A stretch of DNA of 21,152 nucleotides from a virus. Location of the stretch: positions 1 through 21,152 of IMG/VR virus record IMGVR_UViG_3300047359_000140; one strand, 5' to 3'. Position 1 is the first letter of the stretch; each line of letters opens with the position of its first letter. The notes under the pieces were generated by a model. The model was given only the letters and a program-made list of their open reading frames with translations. It was not told the origin of the DNA and did no database searches. The position numbers and the translations under genes were made by a program. Positions 16,340 through 20,851 of this stretch are shown piece after piece.

Positions 16340-16377
16340 CCGTCGTTTAACAAATTTGTTACTCGGCGGTTTTTTTT
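16340..16377 (+). terminator. Rho-independent terminator after tail-tip gene
   Basis: CCGTCG (16340-16345) pairs with CGGCGG (16364-16369, one wobble), enclosing a perfect inner palindrome AACAAATTTGTT (16349-16360), then eight T. It separates the late genes from the replication region. Confidence 0.8.
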
Positions 16378-16378
16378 A

Positions 16379-16420
16379 AAAATAATTTTTTTATTTGAAA
16401 GTTTTTTTTTATTTTTGCGT
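16379..16420 (+). promoter_or_regulatory. Double T-tract promoter-like motif, copy B
   Basis: Seven T (16386-16392), ATTTGAAAG, nine T (16402-16410), then ATTTTTG. It contains an exact TAnnTTTG, TATTTTTG at 16410-16417, and TTTG at 16394-16397, but only 12 bases separate the two, shorter than the 17-23 reported for flavobacterial promoters. It lies 22 bases before the HTH gene. Related to copies near 1141 and 17474. Confidence 0.6.
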
Positions 16421-16439
16421 AACAAAATAAATAGAAAAT

Positions 16440-17465: not shown

Positions 17466-17510
17466 ATAAAATATTTTTTTAATTGAAAGTATTTTTTTAA
17501 TTTAGGCAAA
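17465..17510 (+). promoter_or_regulatory. Double T-tract promoter-like motif, copy C
   Basis: Seven T (17474-17480), AATTGAAAG, then seven T (17492-17498) and AATTTAGG. Almost identical to copy A near 1141 and close to copy B near 16386. TAATTTAG (17498-17505) is the likely -7 element, with TTG at 17483-17485 twelve bases upstream. It directly follows a terminator and lies about 29 bases before the ATG at 17535. Confidence 0.58.
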
Positions 17511-17534
17511 TATTAACAATTATATTCTTAAATT

Positions 17535-18711: not shown

Positions 18712-19191
18712 ATGTTAGAGCAATTAGAATTACTAAGAAACTTAATTATAAGACACTTAAAAAAAGACCCAAAAGATAAAAGCAGAGTTAGAGAGGTTGT
18801 TGATGCAAAAAAAATATTTTGCTTAATTGCTTTTTATGAGGTCAAAGGATTTAGATATGTGCAAGTCGGTAAGTTTTTAAATATGAATCACGCAACAATA
18901 GTTCACCACGTTAAAAGCGCAAAAGATTTGTTAAACTACGATCCTTATTTTAGAGAAAATTACAAACTGGTTGAAAATAATTTTTTTATGGAAAACCAAG
19001 AAGTGTTGATTACTGATATTGAAAGCGAAATAAATATTTTACTTTTTAAACTTAACAAGTTAAAAGACAAGCGAGAAGAATTTTTAAATAAAAAAGAAGA
19101 ACAAAAAAAATTGGCTCATTTTGAGACTGATGACATTGTTAGAACTGAAACATTAACCCAAGAAAAAAAACCTTTACTGTGGACGAATTAG
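18712..19191 (+). CDS. Stand-alone DnaA domain IV-like DNA-binding protein
   Basis: A 159-residue protein whose first 85 residues resemble DnaA domain IV: helices (VREVVDAKKIFCLIAFYEVK), then YVQVGKFLNMNHATIVHHVK and a following SAKDLLNYDPYF. In DnaA the corresponding signature (DHTTVLHA-like) contacts the DnaA box; here it is NHATIVHH. No AAA+ or domain III region is present. The remainder is a coiled-coil-like charged segment (about 100-135) and a tail ending in LLWTN. It lies upstream of the initiator and origin, so it could bind phage DnaA-like boxes, sequester host DnaA, or act as a repressor. Confidence 0.78.
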   Translation: MLEQLELLRNLIIRHLKKDPKDKSRVREVVDAKKIFCLIAFYEVKGFRYVQVGKFLNMNHATIVHHVKSAKDLLNYDPYFRENYKLVENNFFMENQEVLITDIESEINILLFKLNKLKDKREEFLNKKEEQKKLAHFETDDIVRTETLTQEKKPLLWTN

Positions 19192-19960: not shown

Positions 19961-20851
19961 ATGGAAAACAAGAAAAACTATTATGCCGTTATACCGGCAG
20001 AGGTACGATATTCTAAAAATTTAAAGGCTAACGAAAAATTAATGTACGGCGAACTTACCGCCTTGGCAAATGAAAAAGGTTATTGTTACGCCTCTAATGA
20101 ATATTTTGCACAACTTTACCAGGTTTCAAAATCTACTGTTTCAAGATGGGTTTCTAATTTAGAAAGAAATAAATTTCTAAAAATAAAAATGATTTATGAA
20201 AAGGGAACAAAGAACATAAAAGAGAGAAGAATTTACATTTCTACCCTATTGACGAAAAGCGCAATACCTATTGACGAAAAGATCAATACCCCTATTGACG
20301 AAAAGCGCAAGGTTATATATAAATATAATAATATAAATAATATAAAAAAGAATAATGTACAAAATGTAAAAGCGCCTATATTTACTGAGATTACTGAAAA
20401 GGCGTTTCCACATTTTATAAGCCTTTTTCCTTTAAATTATAGACCGAAAACAAAAGCACAAAAAAACAAATGGTTGGAATGCTTAGATAAAATTCAGCGC
20501 ATTGATAAATATAATTTACGAGATGTTTACAACGTGGCAAAAGATTTAAGAGATGACCAATTTTGGGCGAAAAACTTTTTAAGTATTCTTAAATTAAGAA
20601 ACACAGATAAAAACGGCATAAAGTACATTGATAGGTTTATGGATGATTACCGCTCTAAAACTAAACCAATAGGCTATAATAAAATAAAAGGAATTATTGA
20701 GTATTATATTTATACCTCTCCGGCAACTGGTCAAAAAGAATTAGGAGCAAAAACAAAAGGCGGAGAGTTATATGAATTTAATATAAAACAAACATTGCAA
20801 ACAAAAGAGTTTCACGAATTAAAAAAATACGTTCAAGATGGCAACAAGTAA
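19961..20851 (+). CDS. Winged-helix replication initiator-like protein
   Basis: A 296-residue protein resembling phage O-type or replication initiation proteins with an N-terminal winged helix (about 20-93): KANEKLMYGELTALANEKGY, ASNEYFAQLYQVSKSTVSRW as the recognition region, and KFLKIKMIYEKGTKNIKERR as the wing. A low-complexity linker (94-138) contains PIDEK repeats and an Asn/Lys-rich stretch that coincide with DNA iterons and a pure A/T tract. The C-terminal half (139-296) is a helical domain with KWLECLDKIQRIDKYNLRDV and YRSKTKPIGYNKIKGIIEYY that could bind helicase or other replisome parts. The arrangement is like lambda O, with binding domain, origin and interaction domain in order. 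Overlaps the next gene by 15 bases. Confidence 0.82.
   Translation: MENKKNYYAVIPAEVRYSKNLKANEKLMYGELTALANEKGYCYASNEYFAQLYQVSKSTVSRWVSNLERNKFLKIKMIYEKGTKNIKERRIYISTLLTKSAIPIDEKINTPIDEKRKVIYKYNNINNIKKNNVQNVKAPIFTEITEKAFPHFISLFPLNYRPKTKAQKNKWLECLDKIQRIDKYNLRDVYNVAKDLRDDQFWAKNFLSILKLRNTDKNGIKYIDRFMDDYRSKTKPIGYNKIKGIIEYYIYTSPATGQKELGAKTKGGELYEFNIKQTLQTKEFHELKKYVQDGNK
20245..20305 (+). repeat. Three 15-bp direct repeats (origin iterons)
   Basis: CCTATTGACGAAAAG occurs exactly at 20245-20259, 20267-20281 and 20291-20305, with start-to-start distances of 22 and 24 bases (about two helical turns). The flanks partly continue the similarity (CGCAAT, ATCAAT, CGCAAG). Copy 1 is read in a different frame from copies 2 and 3, so the repeat is conserved as DNA, not as peptide. 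No further exact copies were seen elsewhere in the window. Confidence 0.85.
20311..20350 (+). other. A/T-only tract, putative DNA unwinding element
   Basis: Positions 20313-20349 contain only A and T, starting eight bases after the third iteron. This iteron-then-AT-rich order is typical of phage and plasmid origins such as lambda ori inside the O gene. Encodes the Asn/Tyr/Ile/Lys-rich linker of the initiator. Confidence 0.7.

Follow-up and report, generated by a model that had tools for sequence, protein, structure and literature searches.

In a stretch of viral DNA of 21,152 bases (the window), the linker part of the replication initiator gene very probably holds a theta-type replication origin, which, judged from sequence comparison, would work by the mechanism proposed below. 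Three palindromic iterons and an adjoining A/T-only tract lie within the coding sequence, are selected as DNA, and carry half-sites that covary with the recognition helix encoded by the same gene. The arrangement itself is already known from lambda O, SPP1 gp38 and the Rep proteins of pSK41 and pPR9; what is new is its presence in this phage group, together with the swapping of modules and an apparent recognition code. Lambda-style in-gene origins are thereby supported in a large group of uncultured phages, probably of marine flavobacteria, in which replication has been little studied.

Initiator gene and iterons

The record encodes an HK97-type capsid protein and a tail module; its early block comprises genes for an exonuclease VIII-like protein and a VRR-NUC protein and, towards the end, the 296-codon initiator gene (Table 1). 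The encoded protein consists of a winged-helix DNA-binding domain, a disordered linker whose codons contain the putative origin, and an O-like C-terminal domain. A Pfam scan placed HTH_36 at residues 20–73, returning this family instead of RepA_N, and the protein matched replication-initiator PHROGs. The AlphaFold model was of modest confidence (pLDDT 66), with no confident structure in the linker. When this model was used in a PDB fold search, no match had an E-value below 0.001; the best relevant matches were winged-helix Rep proteins, and the folds 4pql, 4pt7 and 5kbj were matched weakly. A PDB sequence search gave no convincing match and an Rfam search gave none. A minus-strand ORF at 20246–20413 was rejected, as stops interrupt it in all but the closest relatives.

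Table 1. Coordinates of the initiator gene and of the features within it (positions in the window)
Feature	Position	Strand	Remarks
Replication initiator gene, 296 aa	19961..20851	+	PF13730 1.7e-13; phrog_19658 1.1e-28; AF2 model
N-terminal HTH_36 winged-helix domain, residues 1-93	19961..20239	+	48-54% identity to Firmicute/Fusobacterium phage initiators
Recognition-helix codons, SKSTVSRW, residues 56-63	20126..20149	+	Ser58 and Arg62 covary with iteron bases
Iteron 1, CCTATTGACGAAAAGCGCAATA	20245..20266	+	Palindrome core 20249-20264; reading frame differs from copies 2 and 3
Iteron 2, CCTATTGACGAAAAGATCAATA	20267..20288	+	Palindrome core 20271-20286
Iteron 3, CCTATTGACGAAAAGCGCAAGG	20291..20312	+	Palindrome core 20295-20310
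A/T-only tract, 37 nt, presumed DNA unwinding element	20313..20349	.	Conserved in relatives
C-terminal domain, signature DxFWxxNxLSxxKLR	20378..20848	+	On at least three different N-terminal domains; motif common to lambda O

An earlier reading of the letters alone (the sequence-only reading) had described three exact copies of CCTATTGACGAAAAG, spaced by 22 and 24 bases and followed by 37 nt of pure A/T, and the coordinates bear this out. Each copy starts at the first base of an iteron in Table 1, and no fourth copy is present anywhere in the 21,152-base record. The repeat extends beyond 15 nt, copies 1 and 3 being identical over 21 nt, and each copy forms an interrupted palindrome of 20–22 bp, TTGAC-nAAAAn-GTCAA. 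The array begins about 285 nt into the gene, between the DNA-binding and the C-terminal domains, and its spacing corresponds to about two helical turns.

Chance occurrence was assessed with 200 order-2 Markov windows, in none of which did three copies of a 15-mer fall within 100 nt. An A/T-only run of 37 was reached in two of them, and the tract is only the second longest in the window, with one of 39 nt at 1133. The tract alone is weak evidence; its position and conservation after the third iteron carry the weight, since it lies directly 3' of the last iteron in all close relatives.

A repeat within a gene could also be a protein feature, with the linker peptide PIDEK selected at the protein level. 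Copies 2 and 3 share a frame and both yield this peptide, and a second family of DNA-binding domains (see below) has in-frame repeats spaced by 15 nt. Copy 1, however, is read in another frame as LLTKS, from which the sequence-only reading had argued that peptide selection could not account for the repeat, and codon shuffling upheld the argument: the triple-repeat score of 32/36 was reached in none of 1000 protein-preserving shuffles (mean 24.5, maximum 28). The lack of confident structure in the linker, the palindromes that related genes retain despite different peptides and frames, and the constraint on synonymous sites described next also count against a protein feature. Chance and peptide repetition are excluded as the source of the iterons, and selection for the peptide itself is given next to no probability.

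Two scans of IMG/VR supplied relatives, 40 from the first (40–99% identical) and further ones from the second. Among the 16 distinct sequences of the close clade, synonymous variation was found in 3/19 iteron codons compared with 99/214 codons elsewhere (Fisher p=0.014), and in 1/14 scored codons of the A/T tract (16 relatives), so that the synonymous-site comparison suggested by the sequence-only reading showed both elements to be constrained. That reading had also considered relatives that keep the protein linker and lose the DNA repeat; the opposite was found, the DNA repeat being kept while codons and peptides vary. Between clades the iteron copies change in concert (TTGAC in the window, TTGAA in L054 and L085), and iteron identity was 0.80 within genes and 0.60 between genes, a difference reached in none of 2000 permutations.

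Palindromic half-sites, module swaps and the recognition helix

Palindromic form was analysed in 68 distinct 22-mers from 44 related genes. The 22-mers show a 5-6-5 interrupted palindrome, which in the window's group reads TTGAC-nAAAAn-GTCAA. With the register taken by position and, for distant sequences, aligned manually at the A-rich centre, arm complementarity was 0.73, against 0.54 (maximum 0.63) when halves were re-dealt between iterons, and it fell to 0.16–0.36 when the partner was slid by 1–3 bases. The arms covary, as in TTGAC/GTCAA, TTGAA/TTCAA, TTAAC/GTTAA, TCACG/CGTGA and TTCAA/TTGAA. Palindromic symmetry is low (1/5) in the iterons of one clade (L076–L078).

In relatives, which repeat is present depends on the DNA-binding domain. 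L072 and L067 are a natural swap of HTH and iterons: these two elements diverge by 25% and 38%, respectively, compared with 4% over the first 120 nt and 6% for the C-terminal part, and the A/T tract is identical (0%). A larger set (L034, L039, L094–L129 and others) has the same C-terminal domain, about 60–70% identical in most, joined to a different N-terminal domain; here the initiator linker carries ACCGnnnCGGT-type repeats, in frame, every 15 nt. Conversely, the window's N-terminal domain is found at 48–54% identity on unrelated C-terminal domains in Staphylococcus phage 77 and in Enterococcus, Lactobacillus, Leuconostoc and Fusobacterium phages. In nearly all of these initiators the corresponding position holds iterons built in the same way (L052 is an exception), spaced by 22–24, and the half-site TTGAC is common to the window and the Staphylococcus and Enterococcus examples. 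The window shows the same HTH_36 pattern, a PF13730 domain with palindromic iterons directly after it. Besides the C-terminal domain, the partner differs: in several of these phages the gene after the initiator encodes a DnaC-like loader or a DnaB-like helicase. In three of these relatives (L044, L045 and L051), the A/T part that follows the last iteron contains a direct repeat of 15 nt of the type TAATAATACAnnnAT, which may form a structured unwinding element.

For the covariation analysis, five further IMG/VR scans were added, giving 142 distinct HTH_36 domains in 53 clusters at 80% identity. Iterons were called with a chain detector, the score having to exceed the 97.5th percentile of a shuffled null. 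This detector took the place of an earlier one that, having no spacing rule, accepted too much in A/T-rich DNA (mean of 1.03 per linker after shuffling). The threshold was passed by 30/53 clusters, 27 of which yielded a usable half-site, and in the other 23/53 no iteron chain above the null was found with this detector. Every column of the domain was then compared with every base of the half-site across the 27 divergent initiators in an unsupervised scan, in which recognition-helix positions ranked top. Arginine at helix position +6 (Arg62 in the window) was accompanied by C at base 5 in 11/13 cases, compared with 0/14 for other residues (p=6e-6); at helix position +2 (Ser58 in the window), valine was accompanied by A at base 3 in 4/4 cases versus 3/23 (p=0.002), and arginine by G at base 1 in 3/5 versus 0/22 (p=0.003). 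The individual rules had initially been spotted in about 17 sequences, some of which are among the 27, so that the p-values are not entirely independent of the hypothesis. The pairing of Ser58 and Arg62 with TTGAC in the window fits the rules.

On a tree from which the helix columns were excluded, the Arg state changed 10 times, compared with 9.3 for shuffled labels, and six of the changes share branches with a base change. The Arg state is thus as changeable along the tree as randomly placed labels, and the association is not explained by kinship.

An evenly balanced reading of these data is a simple amino-acid-to-base code, in which helix and iterons are swapped together on a conserved C-terminal domain and the opened origin passes to a primase-helicase without a loader. 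In such a code, Arg at +6 would specify C at base 5 and other residues usually A, Val at +2 would specify A at base 3, and Arg at +2 would specify G at base 1. Since every gene includes the sites cognate to its protein, the code could be read off gene by gene; with protein and binding site stored in one gene, sequence alone gives access to many natural protein-DNA pairs. This offers a route to an initiator recognition code, to phage origin-incompatibility groups and to replicons for Bacteroidota genetics. No recognition code for HTH_36 initiators was found in the open-access library covered, where absence is weak evidence.

Proposed origin function and helicase partner

We infer that the site is used as an origin in vivo, as follows. 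The N-terminal winged-helix domain would bind each of the three palindromic iterons as a dimer, with Arg62 reading the G opposite base 5 of the half-site TTGAC and residue 58 contacting base 3. The stacked complexes would strain and open the adjoining downstream A/T tract. The replicative helicase would then be brought in by the O-like C-terminal domain; the most likely candidate is the TOPRIM primase-helicase of the phage itself.

The iterons could instead serve as initiator binding sites for autoregulation, as a roadblock or operator within the gene, with the origin elsewhere. The covariation does support that the encoded protein binds the sites specifically, and binding alone is not proof of origin use; moreover, the binding of lambda O also interacts with transcription through ori. 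Against this, the distance from the start of the gene to the sites is about 285 nt, a promoter scan there was at chance level, close relatives always have an A/T tract behind their final iteron, with conserved synonymous sites, and lambda, SPP1 oriL and pSK41 have proven origins of the same anatomy. We consider autoregulation alone unlikely and an origin the better reading. GC skew was flat and positive with no inflection at the initiator gene in five relatives of 31–33 kb, a weak test as all genes are co-directional.

Self-recognition by a defence or exclusion system was also considered, since the aba element of bstA likewise lies in the gene to which it belongs, has repeats at its ends and shows cognate specificity (PMC8585504). 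Here, however, the protein matches replication-initiator families and not BstA, its gene is accompanied by recombination genes, with a primase-helicase encoded downstream, and an iteron array with an A/T tract is present, whereas aba is a 63-bp element at the start codon (PMC8585504). Such a function is highly improbable.

For the C-terminal domain, the O-like PHROG phrog_391 was matched in two relatives (L039, 1.7e-7; L027, 2.9e-7), and lambda O residues 220–264 gave a direct but weak match (12.3 bits, with E calculated for only two targets). The N-terminus matched some O-like PHROGs, while the direct comparison with lambda O aligned the C-terminus only. The C-terminal domain thus appears to be distantly homologous to that of lambda O.

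The initiator gene is neighboured by recombination genes and, in relatives, is followed by a primase-helicase gene, which would fall beyond the end of the window. A DnaB_C-like match was found in 22/26 related records, mostly within a few kb of the initiator. In one of them (L008, 6646–8355), a fusion of TOPRIM primase and DnaB-like helicase of 569 aa (phrog_239, 9e-90) is encoded about 0.7 kb downstream of the initiator; a 136-aa protein of no known function is also encoded downstream, and a C-5 cytosine methylase-like gene follows the primase-helicase. No DnaC/IstB-type loader was found in the 26 related records. The primase-helicase gp4 of phage T7, which needs no loader, is a parallel. From the nearby TOPRIM primase-helicase and the missing loader, the C-terminal domain would be expected to meet the phage's own primase-helicase; by analogy it perhaps hands the origin to this enzyme, possibly without a loader, which we hold to be about as probable as not.

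Known systems, host group and additional elements

Origins inside initiator genes are established in lambdoid phages (PMC7466680, PMC6022878). As the sequence-only reading had proposed, the anatomy is that of lambda O, with an N-terminal winged helix, palindromic iterons in the gene and an adjoining A/T tract. Both origins lie mid-gene, with tandem interrupted-palindrome iterons (in lambda ATCCCTCAAAACGAGGGA) that have an A-rich centre and mixed reading frames, a spacing of 20/24/23 in lambda and 22/24 in the window, an A/T-rich stretch on the downstream side and the C-terminal signature given in Table 1. Differences from lambda, and also from the O proteins of Stx phages, are the three iterons here instead of four and another half-site; the N-terminal domain here is HTH_36, and its possible homology to the O N-terminus is supported only indirectly. 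Of the proposed match to lambdoid O/ori, anatomy and distant C-terminal homology therefore stood, but the helicase partner differs: in the search for DnaC/IstB-type loaders and among the genes downstream of the initiator in L008 no lambda P was found, and a TOPRIM primase-helicase lies nearby in relatives. The site would work like lambda ori; a lambdoid O/P replicon is not claimed.

The nearest tested relative of the window's N-terminal domain is pPR9 Rep, in which a PF13730 N-terminus and origin region replaced those of pSK41 and supported autonomous replication (PMC5703833). This natural swap, together with a winged-helix N-terminus, central origin boxes in rep, a dispensable linker and a conserved C-terminus in pSK41 and pPR9 (PMC5703833), resembles the window, and the weak fold matches to 4pql, 4pt7 and 5kbj are a further likeness to these Rep proteins. 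Both, however, are plasmids whose C-terminal domain binds host DnaG, and the RepA_N domain of pSK41 is a winged-helix family different from HTH_36. In SPP1, direct repeats and an A/T-rich unwinding element also lie within the initiator gene (gp38/oriL; PMC6316719), but a helicase loader (gp39), a DnaB-type helicase (gp40) and a second origin (oriR) are present. Among cultured Bacteroidota phages, gp006 of Cellulophaga phage phi18:3 has a C-terminal domain 36% identical over 101 residues, with another N-terminal domain and a different repeat at 11-nt spacing.

No Bacteroidota-phage origin of this type was found in the open-access library covered, where absence is weak evidence. The sequence-only reading had called such origins little described, which holds for this phage group, but the arrangement is well known outside it. 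Firmicute and Fusobacterium phages have this DNA-binding domain together with iterons that are nearly identical.

Its assignment to a Bacteroidota phage is likely, the host being probably a marine flavobacterium. A 99% relative is found in a contig of 3,974 bases from a Flavobacteriaceae MAG, and the Cellulophaga phage, as well as Flavobacterium phages that have in common with the window the DnaA-domain-IV-like gene upstream of its initiator, favour Bacteroidota. The assignment is not certain: two further relatives had been placed with a Rhodobiaceae MAG and a Woesearchaeota MAG by binning.

In the window, this upstream gene (18712–19191) encodes a protein of 159 aa with a DNA-binding part resembling DnaA domain IV (PF08299, 1.9e-4, below the cut-off) and no AAA+ domain. 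It has relatives in Flavobacterium phages, and the DnaA-annotated gene upstream of the phi18:3 initiator is related to it. DnaA boxes were not enriched in the window (69 one-mismatch matches versus 90 expected).

Two further elements were observed in the window. Three intergenic A/T-rich copies, 74–78% alike over 58 nt (AAAATATTTTTTTAATT...TTTTTTTAATTT), are located at 1135–1192, 16380–16437 and 17468–17525 and are candidates for a repeated phage promoter or regulatory motif. A near-perfect palindrome around TAACAAATTTGTTA, possibly a terminator, follows the tail gene block at 16340–16369.
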